A stretch of DNA of 64,000 nucleotides. Origin: Clostridiales bacterium (GTDB taxonomy: Bacteria > Bacillota > Clostridia > Oscillospirales > Oscillospiraceae). The notes beneath the pieces were generated by a model that saw only the letters and a list, made by a program, of their open reading frames with translations, ran no database searches and was not told the origin of the DNA. A program made the translations under genes and the position numbers. Shown piece by piece: positions 1,698 through 15,745 of this stretch (its first letter is position 1; each line of letters starts with the position of its first letter). The stretch covers positions 56,394 to 120,393 of the forward strand of contig CABIYX010000006.1 in NCBI GenBank assembly GCA_902363045.1, read 5' to 3'.

Positions 1698-2542
1698 TGG
1701 AGCTCTGGTACGCACTGGTGGATCTGCTGCCCTTTGACTGGGCCCAGCCCGGATCCATGTACTTTATGAAAAACGCGCTGCTGGCGGTGCTGGTCATCTC
1801 GCCCCTGTTCGGCGTGCTGTCCACCATGGTGGTTCACAGCCGGATGTCCTTCTTCTCCGACGCCCTGGGCCACTCCGCCTTTACCGGCATGGCCATTGGG
1901 GCCATCTGCGGCTTCAACGAGCCCACCTGGGCGGCGGTCCTCTTTGCGGTGGTGTTCGCCCTGCTGTTCAATCTGGTGCGCCGCCGCTCCGCCCTGGCCA
2001 GCGACACGGTGATTGGAGTGTTTTCCTCCACAGCGGTGGCCCTGGGCATCTTCCTCTCCACCCTGGGGGGGCGCTCCTTTACCAAGTTCAACAGCCTGCT
2101 CATCGGCGACATCCTCTCCGTGGAGCCGGAGAAGATCGCCCTGCTGGCGGGGATCCTGCTGGTGGTGCTGGTCCTGTGGGGGCTGTCCTTCAACCAGCTG
2201 ATGCTCTCCGCCGTCCACCCCGCCCTGGCGGACAGCCGGGGGGTGAAGGTATTCTGGCAGGAGACGGTATTTTCCATCGCCATCGCCGTGGTGGTGACGG
2301 TGTCCATGACCTGGGTGGGCCTGCTGGTCATCAACTCCCTGCTGGTTCTGCCCGCGGCGGCGGCCCGGAACGTATCCAAAACCATGTTCCAGTACCATCT
2401 AGTTTCTCTGTTGGGGGCGGTGCTGGCCGGAATCGCGGGGCTGATGACCTCTTACTATGTGGGTTCCTCCGCCGGGGCGGCCATCACCCTCTATCTGGCG
2501 GTGTGGTTCCTGATTACCTTCCTGGTCCGGAAAAAGCAGTAA
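1697..2542 (+). CDS. znuB: Zinc/manganese ABC transporter permease
   Basis: This 281-residue polytopic inner-membrane protein of the ABC-3 family has about eight hydrophobic segments and forms the channel for the ZnuABC-type importer. The family-typical segments around the SRMSFFSDALGH and LPAAAARN regions are present. The start at 1697 overlaps the ATPase stop, and the gene ends just before a strong hairpin, so it is the last gene of the operon. Confidence 0.93.
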   Translation: MELWYALVDLLPFDWAQPGSMYFMKNALLAVLVISPLFGVLSTMVVHSRMSFFSDALGHSAFTGMAIGAICGFNEPTWAAVLFAVVFALLFNLVRRRSALASDTVIGVFSSTAVALGIFLSTLGGRSFTKFNSLLIGDILSVEPEKIALLAGILLVVLVLWGLSFNQLMLSAVHPALADSRGVKVFWQETVFSIAIAVVVTVSMTWVGLLVINSLLVLPAAAARNVSKTMFQYHLVSLLGAVLAGIAGLMTSYYVGSSAGAAITLYLAVWFLITFLVRKKQ

Positions 2543-2546
2543 ACAG

Positions 2547-2584
2547 CAACAAAAACAGCAGGCGGACGCCTGCTGTTTTTGTTG
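2547..2584. terminator. Bidirectional intrinsic terminator
   Basis: A 17-bp perfect stem (2547-2563 with 2568-2584) has a GGAC loop. The stem arms are A-rich on one side and T-rich on the other, so it works as a terminator in both directions. It ends znuB on the plus strand and the small Zn-ribbon gene on the minus strand. Confidence 0.9.
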
Positions 2585-2586
2585 TG

Positions 2587-2799
2587 TCAAATTTGAAAGT
2601 CCTCGTCCTTCAGGGCGCTGAAATCCGCCTTGGCGGGGCGGGGAGGGACGCGCTTGAGGGGATCGTATCGAAAGGACCGGCAGTGGGAGCCGGCGGACAT
2701 GACGCCTTTCTTGTCGCAGACCACCTGCTCCTCGTCCAGGGGACGGCTGCGGGCGCAGTAGACACAGCGGGGCTCGATCTTCTTTTGAAACAGGGCCAA
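2587..2799 (-). CDS. Small conserved Cys-rich (zinc-ribbon-like) protein
   Basis: The predicted protein is about 70 residues with CVYC near the N-terminus and two further Cys (VVCDKKG and SHCRSF), a pattern suiting a single zinc ribbon. A GTG at 2820 would add seven residues. However, GGGAGG lies 8 nt upstream of a TTG at 2799, giving the N-terminus MALFQKKIEPRC, and this is preferred. The function is unknown. It sits downstream of ylbJ on the same strand and may be co-transcribed with it. Confidence 0.75.
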   Translation of the reverse strand: MALFQKKIEPRCVYCARSRPLDEEQVVCDKKGVMSAGSHCRSFRYDPLKRVPPRPAKADFSALKDEDFQI

Positions 2800-2841
2800 C
2801 GGGGGCACCTCCCTTGTCACAGGTATTGAAGGTTCCCTCTA

Positions 2842-4023
2842 TTATACCCCGTGGGCGTGAGATTTTCCACTGCTTTTTTTCATCCCCCGGGCGGCCAGCA
2901 GGAGGAAGAGGAGCCACACGCACCAGGCGGAGACGGAGGAGATGGTCAGGGCCTGGTGGAGGTCCAGGGCGGCCAGGGTCTCGGCCTGCTCGGCCAGATA
3001 GGCGGACACCGGGGCGTCCAGGGGGAACAGCCGGGTCAGCAGGCCCAGCAGGGCGGCGGAGAACAGGCCGTGGAGCAGCTTGCCCCACAGATAGGTCCCC
3101 ATGGACAGGCCGGAGTCCCCCAGAAAGGCCAGCACCTGGCAGTGGACGGACAGGCCGGCCCAGCCAAGCATGAAGGCGGCCATGGAGAGCCGCCCGGAGA
3201 GGGGGCCGCCAGTGAGAGAGGACACCCCGGAGGAGACCTCCAGAAGGCCGGTGAGCAGCCGCTCCGCCCACACCTGGTCGAGGCCCAGGGGGGCGCACAG
3301 CCGGGACAGGAGCCGGGCAAGGCCGGTGAGCACGCCGGAGAGGGTGAGCATCCGGATGGTCACGGTGAAAAACAGGATGAAGGCGCAGATGTTCAGCGCG
3401 GAGGCCAGGGAGCCGGTGACCGACCGGGTGAAGGCGGTGGAGAAGCGGGCGGCCTGAAAGTGGGCCTCCGGGCGGCGGCTGGGGCGGGGCGGCTCCCGGT
3501 AGCGGTAGAAGCGGAACAGCACCCCCACCAGCAGGGAGGCGGCCACATGGGCCAGATAGAGCAGAAGGCCCGCCGCTCCGCTGCCGAACACCCCGGTCCC
3601 CACCACCCCCAGGATGAAGGCGGGGCCGGAGTTGTTGCAGAAGGCCAGCAGCCGCTCGGCCTCGGCGCGGGAGCACTGGCCGTTCTCATACAGGGCGATG
3701 GCGGTGCGGGCCCCCACCGGATAGCCCCCGATGAAGCCCAGGGCCACGGCGGAGGCGCAGGCCCCGTTCACCCGGAAGAGGGGGGCCATCACCGGCTGGA
3801 ACAGCCGCCCCAGACAGCGGGACATCCCCAGCTCCACCACCAGAGAAGACAGCACGAAGAAGGGGAAGAGGGAGGGCAGGATGACGTTGCCGCAGAGGGA
3901 GAGGCCGTCCTTCATGGCGGCCATGGCCTCCTCGGGCCACAGGATCAGGGCCAGGGCGGAGCACAGAAGCCCCAGAGCAAGACACAGGTCCCTGATATGC
4001 TGTTTTCCCAAAAGACGTCCCAT
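2842..4023 (-). CDS. ylbJ: Sporulation integral membrane protein YlbJ
   Basis: This is a 393-residue polytopic membrane protein of the YlbJ family (nucleoside-recognition/Gate domains), known from Bacillus to be needed for spore maturation. Characteristic segments are the NVILPSLFPFFVLSSLVVE region, GFIGGYPVGART and CNNSGPAFILG near the N-terminus. The second Gate-like half follows around residues 230-330. An AGGAGGT site lies 7 nt before the ATG at 4023; the ATG at 4030 is too close to that site. It is one of several sporulation genes in this window. Confidence 0.9.
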   Translation of the reverse strand: MGRLLGKQHIRDLCLALGLLCSALALILWPEEAMAAMKDGLSLCGNVILPSLFPFFVLSSLVVELGMSRCLGRLFQPVMAPLFRVNGACASAVALGFIGGYPVGARTAIALYENGQCSRAEAERLLAFCNNSGPAFILGVVGTGVFGSGAAGLLLYLAHVAASLLVGVLFRFYRYREPPRPSRRPEAHFQAARFSTAFTRSVTGSLASALNICAFILFFTVTIRMLTLSGVLTGLARLLSRLCAPLGLDQVWAERLLTGLLEVSSGVSSLTGGPLSGRLSMAAFMLGWAGLSVHCQVLAFLGDSGLSMGTYLWGKLLHGLFSAALLGLLTRLFPLDAPVSAYLAEQAETLAALDLHQALTISSVSAWCVWLLFLLLAARGMKKSSGKSHAHGV

Positions 4024-4100
4024 CCCGCATACCTCCTGTTCTCTGGGTGGTACCAGCAGGGATACTGTATGCTAGGGGATGGGGAAATCTGCCTGTCCGG

Positions 4101-4142
4101 CAAAAACTGCCCCGGGGCGGCTCTGTTGAACTGCCCCGGGGC
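4101..4142 (-). terminator. Intrinsic terminator of nagB
   Basis: Two copies of the self-complementary decamer GCCCCGGGGC (4109-4118 and 4133-4142) can pair across a 14-nt loop. Read on the minus strand the hairpin is followed by a T-run (4102-4106). It lies just downstream of nagB. Confidence 0.75.
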
Positions 4143-4165
4143 GTTATGGCGGATAGAAAGAGGGA

Positions 4166-4891
4166 TCAGATGAGGGAGAGGGCCTCCTCGTCGGCCACCA
4201 GGGTAAAGTCCCCGTGGAGCTGGAGGATGGAGGCGGGAACGTGTGGGGTCACCGGGCCGAAGAAGGCGTCCCGGATGGCCTGGGCCTTGGCCGCCCCGTT
4301 GGCCACCATCAGGACCTTCCGGGCCTGCATGATGTCCCGGACGCCCATGGTGCGGGCGTGGGTGGGGACCTCCTCCAGGCTGGAGAAGAAGCGGCGGTTG
4401 GCCTGCCGGGTGCTGTCGGTGAGCTCCACCTGGTGGGTGCCCAGGGAAAAGGACTCAGCGGGCTCGTTGAAGCCGATGTGGCCGTTGACGCCCAGGCCCA
4501 GCAGCTGCAGGTCGATGCCGCCCAGGTCCCGGATGATCTGGTCATAGCGGGCGCAGGCGGCGGCGCCGTCGGGATCCATGCCGTCGGGGACGTTGGTGCT
4601 GGCCGGGTCCAGGTTGACGTGGTCGAACAGGTTGTCCCGCATGAAATAGGCGTAGCTCTGGTCGTGGTCCCGGTTCAGGCCCACATATTCGTCCAGGTTG
4701 ACAGTGCGGACCTGGGAGAAGTCCAGCTCGCCCGCCTGACAGCGGCGGACCAGTTCCTGATAGGTGCCAACGGGGCTGGAGCCGGTAGCCAGGCCCAGGA
4801 CACAGCAGGGCTTGAGGATGACCTGGGCGGCGATGATATTGGCGGCGGCGCGGCTGAGCGCCGAGTAATCCTTGACTGAGATGATCTTCAT
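4166..4891 (-). CDS. nagB: Glucosamine-6-phosphate deaminase
   Basis: NagB converts glucosamine-6-phosphate to fructose-6-phosphate and ammonia, feeding amino sugars into glycolysis. At 241 residues it has the normal length of the short Gram-positive form. Family motifs seen are LGLATGSSPVGTY, VNLDEYVGL and LGLGVNGHIGFNEP, which contains the catalytic region. An AAAGGAGA site precedes the ATG at 4891. It is transcribed divergently from the remnant of an RpiR-type regulator, the sort of regulator that normally controls such genes. Confidence 0.95.
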   Translation of the reverse strand: MKIISVKDYSALSRAAANIIAAQVILKPCCVLGLATGSSPVGTYQELVRRCQAGELDFSQVRTVNLDEYVGLNRDHDQSYAYFMRDNLFDHVNLDPASTNVPDGMDPDGAAACARYDQIIRDLGGIDLQLLGLGVNGHIGFNEPAESFSLGTHQVELTDSTRQANRRFFSSLEEVPTHARTMGVRDIMQARKVLMVANGAAKAQAIRDAFFGPVTPHVPASILQLHGDFTLVADEEALSLI

Positions 4892-4953
4892 GGAACAGTT
4901 CTCCTTTCCTGTGGAGCGCGGCCCGGGGGCGGGGGGAATTTCCGGCAGATCGG

Positions 4954-4982
4954 TTGCGGTTTTCCAGTGGACCGATTATAAT
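4954..4982 (+). promoter_or_regulatory. Probable sigma-A promoter towards the RpiR remnant
   Basis: TTGCGG at 4954-4959 and a perfect TATAAT at 4977-4982 are separated by 17 bp. It reads right, towards the truncated regulator at 5126. Confidence 0.6.
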
Positions 4983-5031
4983 GGAGCCAAGTCCAGGAGA
5001 CAGGTTCCGATCCCGGCGCGATCCTGCTTTG

Positions 5032-5060
5032 ATTGTAGCACAGCGGCGAGAGATTGTCAC
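5032..5060 (-). promoter_or_regulatory. Probable sigma-A promoter of nagB
   Basis: On the minus strand GTGACA (5060-5055) is separated by 17 bp from TACAAT (5037-5032). The leader to nagB would be about 135 nt and overlaps the divergent plus-strand promoter. Confidence 0.6.
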
Positions 5061-5125
5061 TGAAAATTTGCGCCCCGGGCGGAGAGCCGGCGCGGGGCGC
5101 GGCCAGAGAGAGAAGGCGCACATCC

Positions 5126-5377
5126 ATGGGTGAACAGGATATTTTTGAGCGCATCAGCAGCCGGTATTTTGAATTGACCGCCTCAGAGCGGCGGGCGGAT
5201 CTGGTGCTCCAGTGCGGCTCCCGGGAGGGGCCCCTCCAGGCCGGGTCGGTGGAGGCCCGCATCGCCCAGCTGTTTGTGATGGACCTCCTCTTTACCGAGA
5301 TCTGCTGCCTGGACCCGGAGGGGACGGCAGCCCGGCAGGAGCGGGTGGCCGAGGCCCTGGCCCGGAAGCACCTGTGA
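5126..5377 (+). pseudogene. Internally deleted MurR/RpiR-family transcriptional regulator
   Basis: This 83-codon frame starts with the beginning of an RpiR HTH domain (IFERISSRYFELTASERR). It passes directly into the end of the SIS sugar-phosphate domain (ADLVLQCGSRE and EARIAQLFVMDLLFTE). Intact family members are about 280 residues, so roughly 200 residues covering the DNA-recognition helices and the SIS core are missing, without loss of frame. An AGAAGG site precedes the ATG at 5126. RpiR proteins often control amino-sugar genes, so it was probably the regulator of the divergent nagB. It should not bind DNA in its present form. Confidence 0.7.
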
Positions 5378-5432
5378 CCGGGGGGTGGCGGGGACTCTCG
5401 CTTTTGATTAAAAGGATCTGATTGGAGAAATT

Positions 5433-5816
5433 ATGAAAGATTTATATGATATTGCATGGAGCACAATTATACCCAAGCAGTTGAAGAAAAATGGAAAAGC
5501 TGGTCATGTTGCCTGTGCGTTAGAGGCGGAAAGTGGAGCTGTTTTTACAGGTATTTGCATTGACGTGCCGTGTTCCATAGGTATATGTGCAGAGCAGTCA
5601 GCGATTGCTGAAATGCTGAAGCACGGTGAGACCAAAATAAAGCGGCTCATAGCTGTTTATGAAGATGGAAGTATTTTGCCGCCATGCGGAAGATGCCGGG
5701 AACTGATTTCTCAGTTAGACTTTGATAACGAAGATACAGTCGTTGCAATGGATGATGGCCGGGAAATCACACTGAAAAAATTGCTGCCTGAGAGGTGGGA
5801 TAGAAAATGGGACTGA
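5433..5816 (+). CDS. Cytidine deaminase family protein
   Basis: This is a 127-residue zinc hydrolase of the cytidine deaminase fold. The zinc and catalytic motifs are CAEQSA (C-A-E) at about residues 49-54 and PCGRC at about 83-87; HVACALE replaces the usual HVGAALE-type substrate strand. The length matches tetrameric cytidine or blasticidin-S deaminases; the substrate cannot be decided. GGAGAAATT precedes the ATG. The gene is much richer in A+T than its neighbours, and its stop overlaps the next start by 10 bp, so the pair probably arrived together by horizontal transfer. Confidence 0.85.
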   Translation: MKDLYDIAWSTIIPKQLKKNGKAGHVACALEAESGAVFTGICIDVPCSIGICAEQSAIAEMLKHGETKIKRLIAVYEDGSILPPCGRCRELISQLDFDNEDTVVAMDDGREITLKKLLPERWDRKWD

Positions 5817-6505
5817 CCCGATTCACCGACAAAATATATTATTTGGAGCATGAAGCGGAAGTTGATAGGCCTATGCTGGCCTACATCAAGGGAAATCGCT
5901 TTTCACTTGCGGTTGATGCTGGATATTCTACCTCTCATGTGGCAGATTTCTACACAGCGCTTCAGTCAGAGCAGTTTAAATTGCCTGATTTTACGGTGAT
6001 CACACACTGGCATTATGATCACACATTTGGTATGTGTGCGATCAATGGAATCAGCATTGCGTATGAGAAAACGAATGAATTTCTGAAAGATCAGCAGGAG
6101 CAGGCAAAAAGTGCAAATTATATTGCGGCCCTCAAACAGGAAGATGTTCATTTTAGGAAAGAGTACCGCGGATGTGATCGGCTGAATATTGTGTTGTCAG
6201 ACATAACATTTTCAGATAAAGTGGAGTTGGATCTGGGCGGTATTACCGCCCGGATATTCCACACAGTATCCCCTCATTCTGAGGATTCCACTTGTATTTA
6301 TATACCGGAAGAAAGAGTGCTGTTTTTAGGCGATTCAACAAGTGAGGACTTCTTTCACAATGGTTATATGGATCAGGAGAAATTGGGTATTTTAATGCAA
6401 ATGATCCAATCTGTGGATTGTGATTACTGCATACTCAGCCACTGTGAGCCGCTTCAGAAAGAAAGCTTGCTGGAATACTTAGACAGCTTATACATAACAG
6501 ATTAA
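5807..6505 (+). CDS. MBL-fold metallo-hydrolase
   Basis: This 232-residue metallo-beta-lactamase-fold protein has the HxHxDH metal motif as HWHYDH (about residues 67-72), then FHTVSPHSEDS, LFLGDSTSED and a final ILSHCEP histidine. These supply the two-metal site. The reaction is unknown. It overlaps the deaminase-family gene by 10 bp and shares its low GC, so the two probably form a horizontally acquired two-gene operon. No signal peptide is visible. Confidence 0.88.
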   Translation: MGLTRFTDKIYYLEHEAEVDRPMLAYIKGNRFSLAVDAGYSTSHVADFYTALQSEQFKLPDFTVITHWHYDHTFGMCAINGISIAYEKTNEFLKDQQEQAKSANYIAALKQEDVHFRKEYRGCDRLNIVLSDITFSDKVELDLGGITARIFHTVSPHSEDSTCIYIPEERVLFLGDSTSEDFFHNGYMDQEKLGILMQMIQSVDCDYCILSHCEPLQKESLLEYLDSLYITD

Positions 6506-6731
6506 AGATCATCCGTGTGCGCGTCAGCTGTGATCTGGGACTATATTTTTTGTCTGCTTCTGGTAAATAAGGGTGAGACAGAAAATCCAGTGTCCAGTTT
6601 GGACGATGAAGGGACGAACACCGTAAGTCTTGCATCCTTCGACAAATGCTGGTACAATAAAAGGGACTCTGGCGGAACTGGCCGGGGAAAACGGCGAACT
6701 GGCTCCGGCCAGAGATGGAGGCTTGCGTTCT

Positions 6732-7625
6732 ATGGAGGAACTTCGTCCGGCTCCCACAAGTAAAAAAGGGGCTGGAAAGCGGACCGCGGGCGGCGGAGGC
6801 GGCTGGGCCGGAAAGGCGGCGCTGGTCCTGTCCCTGCTGGCCCTAACCGTGTCCGGCGTGGCGCTGTACCTGCTGCTGTTCGGCGAGAAGGAGCCGGAGT
6901 ACCTGACCTACCGGGACCAGCAGCTGCTGGTGCTGGAGGATGTAGACCGGAACCAGTATGACCCGGAGGATTTTTCCACCGACAGCCAGGGGTGGCTCCA
7001 GTACCAGTCCGGCGGACGCCGGGGGGTGCAGGGGATCGATGTCTCCTTCTATCAGGGGGAGATCGACTGGCAGGCGGTGGCCAGCTCCGGTGTGGAGTTT
7101 GCCATGATCCGGGTGGGCTACCGGGGCTATTCCCAGGGCGGGCTCCAGCTGGACGAGCGGTTTCAGGAAAATATGGACGGGGCGCTGGCCGCCGGGCTGG
7201 ATGTGGGGGTCTATTTCTTCTCCCAGGCCACCTCGGTGCTGGAGGCGGAGGAGGAAGCCGACTTCGTGCTGTCCGCCATCCGGGGCTACCCCATCAAGTA
7301 CCCGGTGGTCTTTGATTGGGAGTTCATCGATGGGGCGGAGGCCCGCACCGACGGGATGGACGGGGAGACCATGACCCAGTGCGCGGCCGCCTTCTGCGAG
7401 CTGGTCTCCGTGGCCGGATATACGCCCATGATCTACTTCAATCAGGAGCTGGGCTATCTGTTTTACCAGCTGGACCAGCTGGACGCCTCCCAGTTCTGGC
7501 TGGCGGAGTATGACGCCAAGCCTGACTTTTTCTATGATTTTGAGATGTGGCAGTACACCCACACCGGGGTGGTGCCGGGGATCCAGGGAAATGTGGACCT
7601 GAACCTGGCTTTTCAGAGAAATTAG
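6732..7625 (+). CDS. Membrane-anchored GH25 lysozyme
   Basis: This is a muramidase of glycoside hydrolase family 25. The start at 6732 has GGAGG 10 nt upstream and gives 297 residues. A basic cytoplasmic tail is followed by one membrane segment (about residues 27-50), a linker, and the GH25 barrel. GIDVSFYQGEIDW begins the barrel, PVVFDWEF carries the catalytic Asp/Glu pair, and EMWQYT lies near the end. The topology puts the enzyme outside the membrane for cell-wall turnover. The frame is open further upstream to 6630, but that extension lacks a ribosome site. Confidence 0.9.
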   Translation: MEELRPAPTSKKGAGKRTAGGGGGWAGKAALVLSLLALTVSGVALYLLLFGEKEPEYLTYRDQQLLVLEDVDRNQYDPEDFSTDSQGWLQYQSGGRRGVQGIDVSFYQGEIDWQAVASSGVEFAMIRVGYRGYSQGGLQLDERFQENMDGALAAGLDVGVYFFSQATSVLEAEEEADFVLSAIRGYPIKYPVVFDWEFIDGAEARTDGMDGETMTQCAAAFCELVSVAGYTPMIYFNQELGYLFYQLDQLDASQFWLAEYDAKPDFFYDFEMWQYTHTGVVPGIQGNVDLNLAFQRN

Positions 7626-7644
7626 CGGGGCCCTCGGGCCCCCG

Positions 7645-7680
7645 GCGCGGCGGATGTCTGGAAACAGGCCTCCGCCGCGC
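7645..7680. repeat. Inverted repeat after the GH25 gene
   Basis: Arms GCGCGGCGGA (7645-7654) and TCCGCCGCGC (7671-7680) can form a 10-bp stem between the convergent lysozyme gene and the ATPase fragment. There is no T-run, so a terminator role is uncertain. Confidence 0.4.
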
Positions 7681-7695
7681 TGCCGTCCGGCGGAC

Positions 7696-8496
7696 TCAGG
7701 CCAGGGAGAGGAGCTCCTCCGCCACCCGGTCCGCCATCTCCTGCACCCGGGCAAAGTCAACATAGGGGTTGTACAGGGCCTCCAGGCCATCGTGCATGGC
7801 CTTGGCCTGGGCCAGGGACTCCACGGCCTCGCCGGTGAGGGCGGAGGAGACCTTTTGGGCGAAGCGGAGCCGGGCGCGGCTCCGGCGCAGAAGCTCCCGG
7901 TCCACCATGGCGTCCAGCCGCAGCCGCCGGCTGGGCCGCCCCGGGAAGGGCCGGGCAGGGGAGGCGGAGAGAAAGGCCAGGCCCAGCTCCGGGACCAGAA
8001 GGTGGGAGAGCCGCTCCGGGGCCATGGGATCCGGGCAGGCCACCACGTCATAGCCCCCCATGACTGCGCCGGCCAGCAGGTGGGTGAGCAGCAGGTGGGA
8101 CAGGCCGTAGCGGTCGGACAGCTCATAGATTCGGGTACACTGGGCGCGGGCCGTCTGGAACAGAGTGATGAGCCCCTTGTGGGAGACGGCGTCCAGGAAC
8201 CGCTGCTTTACCCGGCCGGAGGGGGCGGAGCGCTTGGACTTCAGCTCCCGGGAGAGGATCCCGTGGGCGCGGGCGGCCAGCTTCTCCTCCAGGGCGGGGG
8301 CGGCCAGCATGGCGCGGACGTCGGTCTGGATCCCGGCGGCGGCGTCCAGACAGCGGTAGGCCCGCTGATAGTGCTCCTTGTAGCCGTCCATGCACGTCAA
8401 AATCTTGCCCCGGATGGCCCGCAGGCCCGCCCGGTCATAGCAGTCCCCCAGGTTGACGTACTGCTCCACCGCCCCGGGATATTTGGGCTCTACCAC
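7696..8496 (-). pseudogene. C-terminal part of a P-loop ATPase gene interrupted by an integrative element
   Basis: This 266-codon frame starts abruptly (VVEPKYPGAVEQYVNLG) with no ribosome site. It continues exactly where the fragment at 14653-14937 breaks off after DGTAPH. Joined, the two give about 361 residues, a sensible length for the uncharacterised clostridial P-loop ATPase family that the fragments resemble (PRK06851-like, from memory). Codons line up across the CATGGG cores: CAT of the right half joins GTG of the left half in frame. While the element is present, only a truncated ATPase should be made. Confidence 0.85.
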
Positions 8497-8522
8497 ATGG
8501 GTATTGTCCCTTTAGGACACCT
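8496..8522 (+). other. Left attachment site (attL) of the element
   Basis: The core CATGGG at 8496-8501 overlaps the CAT-GTG codons of the ATPase. It is followed ten bases inside by TTAGGACACCT (8512-8522), the inverted partner of the sequence at the right end. Confidence 0.75.
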
Positions 8523-8642
8523 CGTCGCCGCGGCCTTCCTATCCTTCGCTTCCGCCTTGCGGCGAAAGCTCACTCATTCCGGCGCGGCTCCTCTCTCCAC
8601 CGAACCCGCTGCCGCTGGGCTTCGGCGGGGGCCCCATATTTC

Positions 8643-10196
8643 TCAAAATTTCCAGTGGATTTTGACTTTCTGCTGACCAGTATCCGGGTCCTGCTCACCG
8701 ATCTCGATTTTCTCGATCAGCATCACTGCCAGCTCCCGGGGGAGGGTCTTCAGTTCCAGCAGTTCCCGGGCTTTGTCCATGACCTCCTCCTGATTGCGGG
8801 GCTGCTCCTGACCGGAGAGCTCTTGATCGATCTGGGCCAGCCGCCGCTCCAGGCGGCTCTTTTCCTCTAGGAAGTCCTGGTTCAGCTCCACAAACTGTCC
8901 TTCACTGAGCACACCGGACACCTTATCCAGGTACAGGTTTTTCAGCGCTGTACTCCGCTTCTCCAGCTGGGCGCTCAGGGTCTTCTGCTCCTGCAGCAGG
9001 GCCTCCCGGTGGTCGTCCTTTGGCGGCGGGAGCTCCAGCTCCTCCAAATGGTAGTAGGCCCCGATGTAGTCCCGAATGCGTTGGGAGACCAGTTCCATCA
9101 GCCGGTCCAGCCGGATGGAGTGGCGGGTGCACAGCTTCTGTGTCCCGCTGTCGGCGTAGAGCTTGCAGCGAAGATAATATACCTGTGCTTTCCCCTTTTT
9201 CCCGTTGGAGGTCTTGCTCATGGTGCTGCCGCAGTCCATGCACTTCACAAGGCCCGCCAGGGGGTGCACCATGCCGGTGCCGTCCTCCCGGGAGCGAATG
9301 TCCAGGTTCCTCTGGACGGTCTCAAAGGTCTCCCGGTCGATGATGGCCTCGTGAGTGTCCTCCACCCGGAACCAGCGGTCCCGGGGCATGACGATGATGG
9401 CCTTAGATTTGTAGCTGGCCTTTTTGGTCCGGCCCTGCACCATGACGCCGGTGTAGATCTCATTACGGAGAATCCGCCATACAGTGTTCTTGTTCCAGAG
9501 CCCGAAATCCTGCTTGCAGAAGTGGTTGCTGTCCCAGCCCCGCTCCGCCTTGTATCGGGTGGGATTGACCACCCCCAGATCGTTGAGCATGTGGGCGATA
9601 CTCTGCTTGCCGTGACCCTCCAGGGACCAACGGAAGATCTGCCGCACTACCTCCGCCGCCTCCGGGTCCACCAGGAGATGGCCCTTATTGTCCGGGTCCT
9701 TCCGGTAGCCGTAGATGGGAAAGCCGCCGATGTACTGCCCCTGCCGCCGCTTCATGTCGAAGACCATGCGGATGTTCTCCGACAGATCCTCCAGATACCA
9801 CTCGTTGATGAGTCCATTGATCTGGCGGGCTTTTTTGTTGCCCTTGATCTCCGTGTCGGCGTTGTCTGCCACGGCGATGAAGCGGATGCCCCAGAGGGGG
9901 AACAGGCCGTGGATGTACTTCTCCACCAATTCCATATCCCGGGTGAACCGGGACTGACTCTTGCAGAGGAGGATCTGAAACTTCTTCTCCTGGGCCGCCT
10001 GGATCATCCGGTTGAAGTCCGGCCTTAGGCTGTCAGCGCCAGAGTAGTCCTCATCGCAATAGATGTGGTAGATGTCCCATCCCCGCTCCACGGCGTAGTG
10101 GATCAGCAGGGACTTCTGGTTCTGGATACTCTCGGATTCCTTTTGCTGTTTGTCTTCGTCCTCCTTACTCAGTCGTGTATAGATCGCACAAAGAAT
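8643..10196 (-). CDS. Large serine recombinase with probable ATT start codon
   Basis: This site-specific recombinase of about 517 residues should integrate and excise the element. From the ATT at 10196 the protein begins MLCAIYTRLSKEDED, with the catalytic Ser at about residue 10 in YTRLS. Resolvase and recombinase domains follow, then a zinc ribbon (CMDCG around residue 320 and later Cys). A coiled-coil segment at about 380-450 completes the usual LSR layout. AGGAGG lies 8 nt before the ATT. No ATG, GTG or TTG occurs in frame between the TGA at 10202-10200 and the catalytic motif. A GTG at 10091 would remove the catalytic Ser. The gene ends about 140 bp from attL. Confidence 0.88.
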   Translation of the reverse strand: MLCAIYTRLSKEDEDKQQKESESIQNQKSLLIHYAVERGWDIYHIYCDEDYSGADSLRPDFNRMIQAAQEKKFQILLCKSQSRFTRDMELVEKYIHGLFPLWGIRFIAVADNADTEIKGNKKARQINGLINEWYLEDLSENIRMVFDMKRRQGQYIGGFPIYGYRKDPDNKGHLLVDPEAAEVVRQIFRWSLEGHGKQSIAHMLNDLGVVNPTRYKAERGWDSNHFCKQDFGLWNKNTVWRILRNEIYTGVMVQGRTKKASYKSKAIIVMPRDRWFRVEDTHEAIIDRETFETVQRNLDIRSREDGTGMVHPLAGLVKCMDCGSTMSKTSNGKKGKAQVYYLRCKLYADSGTQKLCTRHSIRLDRLMELVSQRIRDYIGAYYHLEELELPPPKDDHREALLQEQKTLSAQLEKRSTALKNLYLDKVSGVLSEGQFVELNQDFLEEKSRLERRLAQIDQELSGQEQPRNQEEVMDKARELLELKTLPRELAVMLIEKIEIGEQDPDTGQQKVKIHWKF

Positions 10197-10276
10197 ATGT
10201 CACACCTCCTAAAAGGCGTAACTGCTCAGTTACATCTTAACACTGAGAGCAGTGATACGGCAAGAAATTATTTGAA

Positions 10277-10308
10277 ATCCCTACGCCGCCAAAACGCAGC
10301 GTAGGGAT
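10277..10308 (-). terminator. Hairpin after the 38-codon ORF
   Basis: ATCCCTACGC (10277-10286) pairs with GCGTAGGGAT (10299-10308), a 10-bp perfect stem overlapping the stop of the small ORF. A weakly T-rich tail follows on the minus strand. It could end the small ORF transcript or attenuate the recombinase gene downstream. Confidence 0.5.
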
Positions 10309-10424
10309 CATTGGGTGAGTTCTTTTGTGAGCCAGGCGGTGATGACTTTTTGGATCAGGGTGCTGGTAAGGATCGGATCTTTGGGTGGATGCTGTTCCGT
10401 TAGGATAAAGGTAGGGTCTTTCAT
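10308..10424 (-). CDS. Small ORF (38 aa) upstream of the serine recombinase
   Basis: The frame runs from ATG at 10424 to TGA at 10308 and has a strong GGAGG site 8 nt upstream. The peptide begins MKDPTFILTEQHPPKDP and ends with an amphipathic stretch (LIQKVITAWLTKELTQ). The family is not recognised. Its position just upstream of the recombinase, with a hairpin at its stop codon, would suit a leader peptide or a recombination-directionality factor, but this is only inference. Confidence 0.55.
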   Translation of the reverse strand: MKDPTFILTEQHPPKDPILTSTLIQKVITAWLTKELTQ

Positions 10425-10469
10425 AAAATCGCCTCCAGGGAATTCTATGAACGATTAGCTTAGGATATG

Positions 10470-10506
10470 AAAAAGCAGATGTACAAGAGCGTACACCTGC
10501 TTTTTT
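10470..10506. terminator. Bidirectional terminator after the FRG gene
   Basis: AAAAAGCAG (10470-10478) and TGTAC (10480-10484) pair with GTACA (10491-10495) and CTGCTTTTT, with one mismatch. A T-run follows on each strand. It ends the FRG gene on the minus strand. Confidence 0.8.
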
Positions 10507-10581
10507 AGATGCTTTTTGGCGAAATGTATATAGCTGTCAACAAGTGTGTATCGCACGGCGCTTTACGAAAAGAGATTCCTT

Positions 10582-11499
10582 TTATGTATTATAGGGTCTC
10601 ATAAGCTCATCTTCGATTTCCTCAACGAGCTTCTGATACTCCGTTTCCTCTGCCAGTTCGATTGTATCCAAATAATGTTCTGTCAACCGTTTGATGTTGT
10701 GGAAGATCAAGTTCATTTCGCCTTCCAGAGAAAATGACTCTGAAGAAACCCGCTCACTTTTCCGAATCATTTCGCTGACAAGATTAAATTCCTCTGGATA
10801 AATGGAACTTGTGTGTATGCCGAAATAGAGGCGCAGGTCGTTTCGCAGCTGTACCTTTGCATTCTTATCAATTTTAATTGCTTCATAGCGGTAATTGGGG
10901 AAGGAACTGAGCCGCTCGCCTTGAAACAGGATGAAAGCTCCTTGCTGCGCTATGATACGCGGGTTCTTCTTGATGTGGTCAATCAATTTGTGATTTTTCT
11001 GGAACAATTCTTGGCCACTAAACAAATCTGCTTCATGGTTGATGCACGCATTATATGCCTCATTGATGTTGTTGCTGGTGGGGCAATACAAATCCTCCAA
11101 AAAGAAGATATACACCATACCGTCCTCGCTGTCACCGCTGGTTTCTTCCTTGGTATAGTAAGGGGTCACAGCAAAGTACAGTGCAGCCAGGCAGTTATAG
11201 GTCACATCCAATAATCTGCTTGGGAATCCGCCGTGCTGCGCATCAATCGCAATTTCAAGGTAGGTTTTACCGTTTGTCAGATGATTAGCAGACATCTCCT
11301 CAAACAGATTCTTTTCAAAGAACTTATCTGACTTGGAGAGTTGCGTCCGAAAAATAGTGGGCTGGCATGGGGTATCATAAACCTTAGATTCCCCGCGGAA
11401 CACCACCACGGAATCGCTTGACTTCGCATGCTTGATGGTTTCTTCTACCGCAGAGATATACTCCGAAATAGATTTGACTGGACCGTCCAAATGTCTCAC
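10582..11499 (-). CDS. FRG domain-containing protein
   Basis: This 305-residue cytoplasmic protein carries an FRG domain. The name-giving FRGES motif is at about residues 34-38, and the conserved block QHGGFPSRLLDVTYN at about 88-102. FRG proteins are common cargo of mobile elements and defence islands; the biochemical role of the domain is not established. The start is GTG at 11499 with AAAGG just upstream. The gene is AT-rich compared with the host. An inverted repeat GATGTT/AACATC (about 11515-11534) lies in its upstream region and could bind a regulator. A strong terminator follows. Confidence 0.88.
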   Translation of the reverse strand: MRHLDGPVKSISEYISAVEETIKHAKSSDSVVVFRGESKVYDTPCQPTIFRTQLSKSDKFFEKNLFEEMSANHLTNGKTYLEIAIDAQHGGFPSRLLDVTYNCLAALYFAVTPYYTKEETSGDSEDGMVYIFFLEDLYCPTSNNINEAYNACINHEADLFSGQELFQKNHKLIDHIKKNPRIIAQQGAFILFQGERLSSFPNYRYEAIKIDKNAKVQLRNDLRLYFGIHTSSIYPEEFNLVSEMIRKSERVSSESFSLEGEMNLIFHNIKRLTEHYLDTIELAEETEYQKLVEEIEDELMRPYNT

Positions 11500-11599
11500 C
11501 GGCCTTTCTATACTGATGTTTCTATTTTAACATCACAAATAATCAAAATACAGTCGATCTTGTTATCTGTAAATTACTTCACTTTTCCACGCAGCATCT

Positions 11600-12892
11600 T
11601 CAAACACAAAATACCGCATATAGAGGAATGGCCTTCAATCCATCCTTCTCTCCAAAATTCTTCAGCGACAGCCGAATGGAGTAGGCAGGCTTATAGTTAC
11701 TCACAAAGACGCTGAGGCTGCGGGAGCGGACGTGCTCTCCTTTTTTGACCTCAACACCAATGATCTGGTTGCCCTTCTGCAGGACAAAATCCAGTTCTGC
11801 GGTGCTGCTGCTCTCCCAATAGTACAGATCGTACCCCTTGGAAGCCAGCTGCTGGGCCACATAGTTCTCGGTAAGCGCCCCCATGAAGGTGTTTCCTTCG
11901 CCGGAGAGCACCGTCTGCTGAGAGATCCCGGATTTCATCGTCAGCAGCCCCACATCGCCCATGTAAAGTTTGAAGGCGGAGAGGTCTGCGTAGACAGCAA
12001 TGGGTTCAAAGGCCTGATTGATGCGCTGGCATTTCAGCACCACGCCCGCCAGATTCAGCCACTCGATAGAGGCCCCGAACAGCGTGGCGCTGCCGCCCTT
12101 CTGCACCACCTTGTATTGGAACTTCTTGTTGTCCTTGGCCAGCTGCGCCGGAATGGAATTGTAGCAGGCTCGGATCTTCACGCTGTCGGCGTTGCTGGCG
12201 TATTTGGCCATATCCGCAATGTAGTTGTCCAAAATCTCACTTTGCACCAGCGGCACATCCAGAAAGCTCCCTCGTTTCAAAAAGGCATTGATGCAGGCCG
12301 GCATACCGCCGATGAGCAGATACTCCCGATACAGTTCGACAGCCTCCTGATGCAGTGCGTCTGGCAGTGGCTCCATGGACTCATAGGAGGCCCGGATTTC
12401 CCTGCAGAGGAATTCCTTGCCCCTGGCCCAGAGATATTCCTCGAAATCCAGCGGATAGAGGGTGATGGTCTCCACCTTGCCTACCGGGAAAGAATATTTC
12501 TGCCGGTTGATGGCCACGCCCAGCAGGCTGCCCGCAGCGGCAACATGAAATTCGGGCGTCTCCTCGCAGAAGTATTTCAGCGCCGTCAGCGCCCGCTCAC
12601 AGGACTGGATCTCATCGAAGATAATCAGCGTTTCACCGGGGATAATGTGCTCGCCAGTGGAAGCCTCCAGATACCGCAGCAGGCGCTCCGGCTGGATATT
12701 CTCATCAAAATAGGAGGCCACCGTCAGATTCGTCTCCAGATTGATATAGACAACGTTGCTGAACTGCTCCTCTCCGAACTTGCGGAGGATATAAGTCTTT
12801 CCCACCTGGCGGGCTCCATTGACAATCAACGGTAGGCGATCTGCAGCTTGATTCTTCCATGCCAAAAGCTGTGCTTCAATTTTCCGCTTCAT
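11600..12892 (-). CDS. AAA ATPase with DUF4143 domain
   Basis: This 430-residue protein combines an AAA_14-type ATPase with a C-terminal DUF4143 nuclease-like domain. The ATPase half has VNGARQVGKTYIL (Walker A), LIIFDEIQSCE (Walker B) and AAGSLLG. In the DUF4143 half, WESSSTAELDFVLQ and VEVKKG resemble the PD-(D/E)xK arrangement. Such proteins are widespread in bacteria and mobile elements, with unproven function. The ATG at 12892 is preferred over the GTG at 12901 because GAGGTGAGG precedes it. A strong promoter overlapped by a palindrome lies immediately upstream, suggesting repression. Confidence 0.9.
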   Translation of the reverse strand: MKRKIEAQLLAWKNQAADRLPLIVNGARQVGKTYILRKFGEEQFSNVVYINLETNLTVASYFDENIQPERLLRYLEASTGEHIIPGETLIIFDEIQSCERALTALKYFCEETPEFHVAAAGSLLGVAINRQKYSFPVGKVETITLYPLDFEEYLWARGKEFLCREIRASYESMEPLPDALHQEAVELYREYLLIGGMPACINAFLKRGSFLDVPLVQSEILDNYIADMAKYASNADSVKIRACYNSIPAQLAKDNKKFQYKVVQKGGSATLFGASIEWLNLAGVVLKCQRINQAFEPIAVYADLSAFKLYMGDVGLLTMKSGISQQTVLSGEGNTFMGALTENYVAQQLASKGYDLYYWESSSTAELDFVLQKGNQIIGVEVKKGEHVRSRSLSVFVSNYKPAYSIRLSLKNFGEKDGLKAIPLYAVFCV

Positions 12893-12903
12893 GGTCCTCA
12901 CCT

Positions 12904-12941
12904 CATGGATATAGTTTATCCATGGTGGAAAGTTAAGTCAA
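12904..12941 (-). promoter_or_regulatory. Promoter and palindromic operator of the AAA/DUF4143 gene
   Basis: On the minus strand TTGACT (12941-12936) and TAAACT (12918-12913) are 17 bp apart. The inverted repeat CATGGAT/ATCCATG (12904-12910 and 12918-12924) straddles the -10 box, a standard operator position. The regulator is unknown. Confidence 0.6.
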
Positions 12942-13002
12942 GAAAAATATGTTAAAATAAGATTTTTTCTCGTTTAACTATTTTGCACTCTGTTGCGGAT
13001 TA

Positions 13003-14112
13003 CTAAAATTTTTTTATACTCTCGCCGCACTCATTGACTAAACTGGAATCCAAATGGGAATATAAATCGGCCGTGGTCAACATGGTGCGGTGGCCTAACC
13101 AGTGCTGTACCTGAATCAGCGGCGTGTGGTTTGCGATCAAAAGACTGGCACAGCTGTGCCGGAGATCATGAAAGCGGATATGCCGCAGGCCATTTTCTTT
13201 CAGGAACTTCTGAAAATCGTGCGTGACAACATCCGGTTTCATCACATTGCCGTGCCGGTCACTGCACACATAGACCGGCCGCAGAGCCTTTTTACGCTCC
13301 AATTCCTCCTGCAAAAGTGAAAGGATCGGCTCAAACAGCGGCAGAGTTCGGTGGGACGCCGCTTGTTTCAAGGTATCTTTTGCGCAAACCACTCGCTTTC
13401 CATCGTCAACTCCCTCTATCACACTATGACATACCAACATGGTCTGTTTCTCAAAATCTACATCTTTCCACCGGAGACCCAGCACTTCGCTGCGGCGCAG
13501 GCCGTAGGCCAGGGATAAGATGACGGGTAATTCCAGTTTTGTCCCTTTCACCGCTTCCAGGAGTTGGCGGGCTTCCTTCTCAGAGTAGTAATTGGCTTGC
13601 GGTCGCTGCCGTTTCGGCTTGCTCACAAATTCAATGGGGTTTCTCAAAATTATTTCCCGTTTGCAGGCGTCCCGAAAGACGCTTTGCAGCAGCATGTGGT
13701 GGTGCTGGATTGTGGTGGAGGACAGACCGTGTTCCTTTAAAAACTGATAGTATGCTTCGATATTTTGGGAATCGACCTCCCGCAACAGGGCGTCTCCAAA
13801 ATAGTCCGTCATATGGTGCTCCGCCATGTGTATGTAGTTGCGGTAGGTGGACGGTGAGAGTTCAGGCTTTCGACGCTCGATCCACGCGTTTAGAAAATCC
13901 ATCAAAATCACATCAGGATGATTCTGCTCCACCTGCTGCTTACGGGTATACGCAAGACACAGTTCCTGGAGTTTTTCCTGAGCGCGCCGTTTATTGTTCG
14001 GCACAGGCAGTCCTAAGTTAAACCGCTTTTGAAGCCGCTTTCCATCGGGATGCTTGAGATTGAGGATCGCATAATATTGATTGTTCACTTCTACGAGCCT
14101 TCCGGTTATCAT
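13003..14112 (-). CDS. Tyrosine-type site-specific integrase
   Basis: This phage/ICE-type integrase has 369 residues from ATG 14112 (GGGAAGG 7 nt upstream; the frame extends to 14145 without a ribosome site). An N-terminal arm-binding region and a SAM-like core-binding domain (about 75-150) precede the catalytic domain. Catalytic residues are seen in LRRSEVLGLRW (Arg), HDLRHSCASLL (His-x-x-Arg), HWLGHR (His) and LYSHL (Tyr). It sits near the right end of an element that also has a serine recombinase. The two enzymes use different chemistry, so this one may belong to a nested or former element or serve another site. Confidence 0.92.
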   Translation of the reverse strand: MITGRLVEVNNQYYAILNLKHPDGKRLQKRFNLGLPVPNNKRRAQEKLQELCLAYTRKQQVEQNHPDVILMDFLNAWIERRKPELSPSTYRNYIHMAEHHMTDYFGDALLREVDSQNIEAYYQFLKEHGLSSTTIQHHHMLLQSVFRDACKREIILRNPIEFVSKPKRQRPQANYYSEKEARQLLEAVKGTKLELPVILSLAYGLRRSEVLGLRWKDVDFEKQTMLVCHSVIEGVDDGKRVVCAKDTLKQAASHRTLPLFEPILSLLQEELERKKALRPVYVCSDRHGNVMKPDVVTHDFQKFLKENGLRHIRFHDLRHSCASLLIANHTPLIQVQHWLGHRTMLTTADLYSHLDSSLVNECGESIKKF

Positions 14113-14196
14113 AAAAATACCTTCCCTTTCGCAATTAAATTGCAACTTTTGTCCTTGCTATCATTGGTTTTGACAGTTGAATCTTATATACGGAAA

Positions 14197-14241
14197 AACC
14201 GTGAAATCCCGCTTGACAGCAGGCTTTCACGGTTATATATT
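14197..14241 (+). promoter_or_regulatory. Strong outward promoter inside an inverted repeat
   Basis: TTGACA (14213-14218) and TATATT (14236-14241) have 17-bp spacing. Arms AACCGTGAAA (14197-14206) and TTTCACGGTT (14225-14234) flank the -35 box and abut the -10 box, as in a repressor operator. It points right, away from the integrase and towards attR. No plus-strand gene follows, so the transcript would be non-coding or antisense to the ATPase fragment. Confidence 0.5.
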
Positions 14242-14271
14242 CATAGTATATTCAAAAATCTTCAAAAAATA

Positions 14272-14300
14272 AATTCGTCGGGCTCATAACCCGACGAATT
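14272..14300 (-). terminator. Terminator at the right end of the element
   Basis: AATTCGTCGGG (14272-14282) pairs with CCCGACGAATT (14290-14300) in a perfect 11-bp stem. On the minus strand TTTATTTTTTG follows. It would stop transcription entering from the interrupted ATPase gene before it reaches the integrase. Confidence 0.8.
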
Positions 14301-14547
14301 ACCAATCATTTCTTGCGAATATTTTTACAAAGCCCAAATTTTGAACAAGTTTGGCATTGTTTTCTTCGTTTTTGTCGTCTGCTTTTGCAATCATATCGCA
14401 ACTTTTTTATCCGCCTTGACCATGCCAGGTGCCTACAATCCGTAGGCATCTGTTTTTTCTGTTCCCTTTTCTGTTCTCCCGCCCTTTTGCTGCCAGAGTC
14501 TTTTTTTGAGCAGTTACGCCTCTTATCAAATAGCTTGTCCCATAAAA
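14301..14547 (-). other. AT-rich right arm of the element without a convincing gene
   Basis: A minus-strand frame of 31 codons (14394-14299, MIAKADDKNEENNAKL) ends on the terminator stem but has no ribosome site. The stretch also holds a small hairpin around 14430-14450 and a 15-bp copy (14507-14521) of the sequence upstream of the serine recombinase (10214-10228, opposite orientation). The truncated ATPase frame runs through here to a stop at 14407. Nothing else is recognisable. Confidence 0.4.
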
Positions 14548-14584
14548 GTGTCCTAAGTAACCGTACCCGGTGCTGGTGCCGTCC
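14548..14584 (-). repeat. Extra att-like half-site inside the right end
   Basis: GTGTCCTAA (14548-14556) followed after 18 bp by GGTGCCGTCCA (14575-14585) repeats the arrangement at attR. There GTGTCCTAA (14632-14640) is followed after 21 bp by GGTGCCGTCCA in the ATPase gene. It looks like the remains of another junction between the same kind of element end and the same kind of target. Confidence 0.45.
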
Positions 14585-14629
14585 AAAAACTGATCCCGCA
14601 ACCCCTTGCAAATACTGACTTTTTTCGCA

Positions 14630-14657
14630 AGGTGTCCTAATGGTGCTGTGCCATGGG
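14630..14657 (-). other. Right attachment site (attR) of the element
   Basis: AGGTGTCCTAA (14630-14640) is the inverted partner of the left-end sequence, and CATGGG (14652-14657) is the shared core inside the DGTAPH codons of the ATPase. Confidence 0.75.
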
Positions 14658-15121
14658 GCGCGGTGCCGTCCACCAGGGCGGCCCCCAGGCGGGGGAGGAC
14701 CACGCCGTCCAGGGAGTCCGGGTCCGCGGAGCAGAGGATGTACTCCACCGTCTCACCGGCCTGGGCGGCCTGCTGGGCCACCCGGCGCATCAGGGTGGAT
14801 TTTCCGCACCCCGGCCCGCCCTTGAGGATGTAGATGGCATTGGCCGTCTCAGGGGAGAGCAGCTCGGAGTACAGGGAGTAGAAGCCGGCGGGGGAGTTCG
14901 CCCCCAGAAAATACTGAATCTCGTGGGATGCAGCCATAAATGGACCCTCCAAATCCTTCAAATCTGCCTCAGACTATGCGCCGCCGGGGGCTGGGGTGCG
15001 GCGGAGCGGGAAAATCCGGCCTTCGGGGCTGTTCAACCGGGAAAAATGGGAGTATAATGAAGAAAAACCCGCGGGCCGGAGCCGGTCCGCCGGAACGCCC
15101 AGGACGGAGGAAAGAGACCCT

Positions 15122-15745
15122 ATGTCAACAGAGAAAACCAGATTTTTGTCCTATATCTGCCCCCGCTGCCGCCAGTCGGTGATCGTGGAGCGGGACGTGT
15201 TTGCCCTGGCCGCCGCGCCGGTCCACATCAAATGCCCCTGCGGCAAGTCGGAGCTGTCGGTGGAGTTCATGCCCCAGCGGGTGCGCCTGAGCGTCCCCTG
15301 CGTCTACTGCGGGCGGGAGCACCTGGTGTCCTGCCCCTCCCACGCCTTCCTGCGGGAGCGGGCCCTGGCCTTCTCCTGTACGGCCTCCGGCCTGGACTGC
15401 TGCTATGTGGGGGAGGAGGGGCCGGTGTACGCCGCCACCGCCCGGCTGGAGCAGGCGGTGGACAAGCTGGACCAGGACCCCGGCCCGGAGGAGGAGCGCC
15501 CCCCCTTCCTGGATCCCATGGTGATGGAGGAGGTCCTGTCCGAGCTGCGGGACATCGCCGCCCGGGGAGGAGTCTCCTGCGCCTGTGGGTCCAAAGCATG
15601 GACCTTCCGGGTGAATTACAGCTCGGTGGATCTGGTGTGCGGCCAGTGCGGCGCGGAGATGCGCATTCCAGCCGCCACCGCGGATGACATCGACAACCTG
15701 TGCTGTAAGACCAGCCTGCTGATCCGGGGGAGGGCCGATACATGA
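15122..15745 (+). CDS. Multi-CxxC zinc-ribbon protein of unknown function
   Basis: This 207-residue protein has several Cys pairs: ICPRC, KCPCG, CVYC, CACG and CGQC. These imply two or three zinc ribbons, with an acidic linker (DQDPGPEEERPPF) before the last. The start at 15122 has GGAGGAAAG upstream; the frame is open further upstream, but that extension lacks a site. It overlaps the thioesterase gene by ATGA at 15742, so the two are coupled. The domain is not recognised, and a role in sensing or protein folding cannot be decided. Confidence 0.8.
   Translation: MSTEKTRFLSYICPRCRQSVIVERDVFALAAAPVHIKCPCGKSELSVEFMPQRVRLSVPCVYCGREHLVSCPSHAFLRERALAFSCTASGLDCCYVGEEGPVYAATARLEQAVDKLDQDPGPEEERPPFLDPMVMEEVLSELRDIAARGGVSCACGSKAWTFRVNYSSVDLVCGQCGAEMRIPAATADDIDNLCCKTSLLIRGRADT

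Follow-up and report, generated by a model that had tools for sequence, protein, structure and literature searches.

A mobile family of serine-recombinase elements that splits a dwNTPase gene at one codon boundary in Oscillospiraceae and Clostridium and is probably excised during sporulation

We analyzed a 64,000-nucleotide stretch of Clostridiales bacterium DNA (assembly GCA_902363045.1, contig CABIYX010000006.1, positions 56,394 to 120,393), hereafter called the window and numbered from its first letter, in which a dual-wield NTPase (dwNTPase, PRK06851) gene is split by an intervening element of 6,156 bp (8499..14654). Both halves of the gene are on the minus strand. The 5' half (14653..14937, 95 codons) ends in DGTAPH and the 3' half (7696..8496, 266 codons) begins with VVEPKYPG. 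An initial annotation, made from the sequence alone, had proposed that these halves are in frame with each other across two CATGGG copies (8496-8501 and 14652-14657), and all of these features are present where it placed them. The attachment sites, also on the minus strand, occupy 14630..14657 on the 5'-half side (probable crossover CA at 14655-14654) and 8496..8523 on the 3'-half side (probable crossover CA at 8499-8498). The inverted element ends are likewise found (8509-8522 against 14630-14643, 14 nt, 93% complementary), and the palindrome expected from joining them fits the quasi-symmetric attP typical of large serine recombinases. The element splits a coding sequence in such a way that its precise removal would restore the frame, and it has a large serine recombinase gene beside an attachment site, two features of sporulation gene-intervening elements (skin, SPbeta, vfbin, gin and yin).

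The proposal that removal of the element would restore the ATPase gene exactly is borne out by relatives. In the nearest genome (G001) the gene is uninterrupted across the same codon boundary, reading ...GACGGCACCGCGCCCCATGTGGTGGAGCCCAAG..., and its protein is 92.5% and 93.6% identical to the two window halves. An intact ATPase of about 361 residues had been predicted to exist, and a protein search returned two of exactly this length, P0003 and P0005 (99% and 93% identical to the 3' half, respectively). P0003 is a single-member entry from a 1,403-base contig, and its 5' half is locally scrambled in a way that resembles a frameshift. A further intact protein, P0009, is 97% identical, its 5' half being 96% identical to that of the window. 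The split form is represented by P0002, which has 98 member sequences and is 99% identical to the 266-residue 3' half. Since P0002 is split and both P0003 and P0009 are intact, occupied and empty sites coexist in the same or very closely related species. The empty sites may represent uninserted strains.

Within the CCCATG shared at the junctions, only CA is invariant across elements, as judged by eye. Therefore, the crossover dinucleotide is probably CA, and the element length of 6,156 bp follows from placing the crossover there. Also by eye, the position after CA seems to carry the base of the element at the 5'-half junction and that of the host at the 3'-half junction, which makes the core directional. 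A palindromic CCATGG core, permitting insertion in either direction, was considered because relatives are found in both orientations, and was rejected because only CA is invariant and the next base differs by side. The recombinase gene occupies one end of the element, with its tail pointing outward next to the attachment site. Among the matches listed, and within 1.5 kb of the recombinase tail, this end faces the 3' half in 27 named loci (type A, the type of the window) and the 5' half in 17 (type B). The two orientations are best explained by attP being present in either direction with respect to the recombinase gene. At the junctions of type-B loci (L062-L084) we also observed that the inner portion of attP repeats the sequence of the host site (GGAACAGCGCCCCA, GTGGTGG). 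As a result, the attL and attR of type B are similar to attB and might receive additional elements.

To assess how common the split is, we used a comparison set of 64 genomes of the nearest genus; the window's own genome lies outside this set. Split and intact forms were called from family-match ranges and junction sequences. The dwNTPase gene is present in all 64 genomes: 41 have only the intact form, 21 only the split form, one (G010) both, and one (G005) is ambiguous because the gene runs to a contig end. In every one of the 21 split-only genomes one or both junctions were seen at this codon boundary (both in 15), so that the gene is split at one codon boundary far beyond chance. The G010 bin holds an intact gene together with a split 3' half (contigs C79 and C54), and is likely to comprise two organisms. 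Alignment of the recombinase against a collection of named genomes yielded at least 80 loci. Among the matches listed, 39 of the 43 whose recombinase has 54% identity or more show a junction at the boundary (the exceptions are L109, L128, L139 and L141), compared to 11 of 37 below 54%. One more of these 37, Alkaliphilus L151, has an intact dwNTPase gene. Named hosts among the matches listed include Flavonifractor sp. An10 (L101), Flintibacter muris (L111), Colidextribacter sp. OB.20 (L122), Clostridium aestuarii (L147) and C. muellerianum (L161), and Clostridium sp. OS1-26 (L172) has both junctions around an element of about 5.8 kb. The 17 two-ended spans contained in one contig (L112 repeats L063) range from 3.5 to 10.9 kb and differ in cargo.

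The interrupted gene belongs to a family with a reported role in spore formation. Its 5' and 3' halves match NF005320 (PRK06851; E-values 2e-28 and 2e-30) at positions 6-98 and 95-359 of 363, respectively, with scores below the curated cut-off, as is also the case in all 64 genus genomes. C. difficile Cd630_32980 (CD3298) is a described member of the dwNTPase family (PMC10949312). CD3298 has been reported to be expressed in the mother cell under sigmaE, its deletion leaving spores with less than 1% of normal dipicolinic acid (DPA) (PMC5509370), and a later study describes largely undetectable Ca-DPA and reduced heat resistance (PMC10449524). The sporulation role that we consider for the split gene is taken from this family member. 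A CAC...CATAGnCTGA motif upstream of the dwNTPase gene is conserved, by eye, in both split and intact genomes and looks like a late mother-cell promoter. In the window, the -10 element (CATAGTCTG, 14970..14978, minus strand, by eye) of this probable sigmaK/sigmaE-like promoter precedes the 5' half. The hosts also carry homologs of sporulation genes: spoIVA matches were found in 61 of the 64 genus genomes (56 above cut-off) and spoVAC-family matches in 64 (48 above cut-off).

The large serine recombinase gene (8643..10196, minus strand; Resolvase, Recombinase and zinc ribbon domains according to Pfam) probably starts with ATT (10194-10196). Of 49 distinct close relatives, 40 have ATT, ATC or ATA at this position, and none of 39 distant ones does. 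Upstream, all on the minus strand, lie a hairpin over the ribosome-binding site (10199..10222), a sigmaA-like promoter (TTGCCG-N18-TAAGAT, 10234..10263, by eye) and a terminator-like hairpin (10279..10306, by eye), which separates this promoter from a small open reading frame (ORF). Six sequences of the ribosome-site hairpin fold with z values of -2.3 to -4.3, and covariation analysis of its main class gave mostly one-sided changes or broken pairs and no compensatory support. Taken together, the level of the recombinase is probably held low.

The small ORF (10308..10424, minus strand), encoding the 38-residue MKDPTFILTEQHPPKDPILTSTLIQKVITAWLTKELTQ, is a candidate recombination directionality factor, and 46 nt 5' of it lies a sigmaE-type promoter, TCATATC-N14-CATAGAAT (10442..10470, minus strand). 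A small ORF upstream of the recombinase is a family trait: in the 25 distinct examples first collected it encodes 36-45 residues. A profile built from these 25 also found matches at 0.4-1.9 kb from the recombinase, with other DNA between them (L062, L067, L069, L071, L079 and L084), and in the first four of these loci both the small ORF and its promoter are kept despite intervening genes. To evaluate the promoter signal, we derived a weight matrix from 13 promoters of the genus copies of spoIVA, a sigmaE gene; the other 17 of 30 loci were left out owing to a misassigned start codon. As a null we scored 2,460 segments drawn at random from these loci, and related sequences enter all of the following counts as separate rows. 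When the 85 nt preceding the small ORF were scored, 36 of the 42 distinct sequences came out above the 99th percentile of this null, 27 above the 99.9th and 22 above its maximum. The position is also fixed, as 33 of the 36 passing promoters lie 45-51 nt 5' of the small-ORF start codon. When 330 nt before the recombinase were scanned instead, the matrix passed 30 of the 49 distinct close-family regions versus 4 of 39 from more distant recombinases. A plain pattern applied to 480 nt gave 20 of 49 and 1 of 39 (0 and 1 on the antisense strand; mean of 0.04 in shuffles). In the 25 examples with N14 spacing, agreement reaches 92% in the -35 and 100% in the -10 element versus 28% in the spacer, a contrast partly built in as the rows were chosen by the matrix. 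Mother-cell sigma control of the putative directionality factor is thus indicated at the level of a predicted promoter motif only.

In split genomes of the genus, both halves of the gene remain open reading frames under constraint. The 3' half is open in all 20 cases recovered from split genomes (265-277 codons, the split copy of G010 included), the corresponding part of intact loci measuring 254-272 codons. None of the 17 recovered 5' halves has a stop after the start codon; two stops in L086 lie before it. The median pN/pS (ratio of nonsynonymous to synonymous proportions) is 0.326 for split-split (210 pairs), 0.409 for mixed (483) and 0.415 for intact-intact comparisons (253), where the pairs are not independent because split rows cluster on the tree. 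In the sister pair G008/G072, both split, nonsynonymous divergence (dN) is 0.011 and synonymous divergence (dS) 0.19. Mapped on the gene tree, the split label requires 9 changes compared to 14.9 in shuffles. We regard this constraint as supportive and the sigmaE signal as the stronger evidence. Open halves could also be accounted for if they were separate, cooperating polypeptides for which excision is unneeded, with a GTG start being possible for the 3' half. We give this explanation hardly any credence, since by eye no conserved ribosome site precedes the 3' half, and the conserved promoter is found before the 5' half only.

Our preferred interpretation is a mobile, multi-species family of skin/gin-like gene-intervening elements whose excision in the mother cell would rely on the recombinase and, as directionality factor, the small protein (probability of roughly 0.84). 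The serine recombinase would insert the element directionally at the dwNTPase codon boundary DGTAPH|VV. In growing cells the recombinase would be scarce, given its sigmaA-like promoter, the ribosome site within a hairpin and the non-AUG start, and by itself would keep the element in place. After asymmetric division, mother-cell sigmaE would transcribe the ORF of about 38 codons, whose product would enable the recombinase to excise the element and rejoin the gene exactly. The rejoined gene, transcribed from its own mother-cell promoter, would then supply the ATPase for Ca-DPA loading, and the spore chromosome would retain the element. Of these points, the sequences themselves show the insertion site, the frame, the empty sites, the recombinase, the small-ORF family, the sigmaE-type motif, the open and constrained halves, and the spread between species. 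We infer that the small ORF acts as the directionality factor, that excision occurs and that it is timed in this way. The suggestion of the initial annotation that the element is skin-like and developmental is accordingly strengthened by the CD3298-family gene, the small ORF with its sigmaE-type promoter, the open and constrained halves, and the spoIVA and spoVAC homologs of the hosts. Its wording of a reversible gene switch is probably wrong: by analogy with skin, the element would be lost from the chromosome of the mother cell, a terminal cell, and retained in that of the spore.

A number of observations weigh against this interpretation. No excision product was seen, and two attP patterns, corresponding to free circles, had no match in viral contigs. 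Orthology of the window gene to CD3298 is deduced from family membership and the usually single copy per genome. One split-form 3' half, P0013 (from a 1.19 Mb contig), is 99% identical over 71% of its length and has an end that looks frameshifted, through either decay or a sequencing error. Six of the 42 small ORFs have no passing promoter score, and the small ORF is weakly constrained (pooled pN/pS of 0.67). Being so short and weakly constrained, and putative in its directionality activity, the ORF might do other work under sigmaE, with developmental excision being driven by the recombinase or a host factor. We consider this very improbable, as the ORF accompanies the recombinase family, its promoter is kept even when displaced, and GirX (42 residues) and CD1234 (72 residues) are comparable small factors. 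Finally, the divergence of recombinases is uncorrelated with that of host genes among 11 type-B elements (Mantel r of -0.12), which leaves vertical inheritance unsupported among them, though r is 0.81 over all 15 elements. G025 and G082 share 97% of the recombinase and 76% of the host gene, and the recombinase of L100 is 97% identical to that of the window, with host halves 60% and 43% identical to the G001 counterpart. Because recombinases move between hosts, insertions may be young; open halves then need not mean function, and the argument from selection is weakened. The same mobility would suit an ordinary site-specific element that favors a conserved coding site, with split hosts losing the ATPase and sporulating badly or never. 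High occupancy could reflect a high insertion rate, and the lack of observed excision would be expected. This explanation gives no role to the sigmaE-type promoter that precedes the small ORF at a constant spacing, and it sits poorly with split genes under unrelaxed constraint and with 20 of 20 open 3' halves. We therefore consider it unlikely.

The remainder of the window element is cargo, all on the minus strand and assigned by Pfam: an FRG-domain protein (10582..11499), an AAA_14/DUF4143 ATPase (11600..12901), which is also present in the elements L061, L101 and L104, and a tyrosine (phage-type) integrase (13003..14145). Pfam revealed no phage structural gene among the four large ORFs of the element and no relaxase or conjugation gene among the same four; the cargo of relatives was not searched for the latter. 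Relatives of the recombinase in viral contigs are at most 44% identical. A phage or plasmid origin was considered and rejected, as relatives there fall below 60% identity, except for one phage record of at least 99%, which was not followed up.

Several further features concern the build of these elements. About 100 bp inside the element end, a second attachment-like sequence, GTGTCCTAAGTAACCG...GGTGCCGTCC (14540-14576), adjoins sequence that forms the recombinase-distal end in type-B relatives, which suggests a composite or nested element. A 19-nt inverted repeat (10210-10228 and 14507-14525, 95% complementary) links the recombinase leader to the far end of the element, and the leader motif GAGCAGTTACGCC recurs near that end and in type-B relatives. 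In L064 (G016, 2062-15289) the recombinase is followed, within 13 kb, by a broken second copy of the close recombinase and by two more distant ones, perhaps stacked elements. The cargo of L062, L063, L080 and L090 appears host-like by eye (flagellin-like, tRNA nucleotidyltransferase-like and HAD-like).

Developmental excision in sporulating cells has been described in a few strains of Bacillus and Clostridium. If our interpretation is correct, such excision is common in gut Oscillospiraceae, extends to Clostridium, and acts on a gene for Ca-DPA loading and hence on spore resistance and transmission. Standard annotation, in which the gene shows up as two fragments, would miss the element family. 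The family further supplies numerous natural pairs of recombinase and small factor, all aimed at one conserved site, and makes testable the question of why such elements settle in mother-cell genes. A bolder and rather doubtful extension is that sporulation serves as the dispersal stage: sigmaE-driven excision would leave the host unharmed and also free circles at mother-cell lysis, which would enter other species and insert there at this very codon. A bacterial group would then share a nearly cost-free parasite of one mother-cell gene, lacking phage or conjugation genes of its own.

Our literature searches found no report of an element in a dwNTPase/PRK06851 gene; preprints and most subscription papers were outside their coverage. 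Among the described systems, vfbin in spoVFB of Bacillus weihenstephanensis likewise splits a DPA gene, but is prophage-like and found in Bacillus (PMC10747680). In yin, located in yabG of Clostridium botulinum, a sporulation gene is also split and both integrated and circular forms were seen, but this element is described as prophage-like, reported from one isolate, and occupies a different gene (PMC10747680). The skinCd element in sigK of Clostridioides difficile uses the recombinase CD1231 and the 72-residue factor CD1234, reported to be under sigmaE and SpoIIID (PMC5025042). By layout, the window element resembles it in having a recombinase with a sigmaA-like promoter, a potential to form secondary structure at the ribosome site, where skinCd has inverted repeats near the recombinase start, and a candidate small factor behind a sigmaE-type promoter; skinCd differs in being prophage-like, with 19 genes, another target gene and a larger factor (PMC5025042). 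In gin, which interrupts gerE of Bacillus cereus ATCC10987, GirC and the 42-residue GirX are reported to excise the element from a mother-cell gene during sporulation (PMC5595907). The likeness, again by layout, lies in a serine recombinase with a small factor (here a candidate), a target gene with a known or, here, probable mother-cell role, and no phage genes in the published description of gin. On the other hand, gin belongs to another host class and gene, measures 28.6 kb, has three serine recombinases, and the genes for GirC and GirX are both reported to be sporulation-specific (PMC5595907). Set beside these systems, the elements described here most likely represent a new family of sporulation gene-intervening elements that is widely spread, targets a gene new to this kind, and probably uses a small directionality factor under sigmaE.

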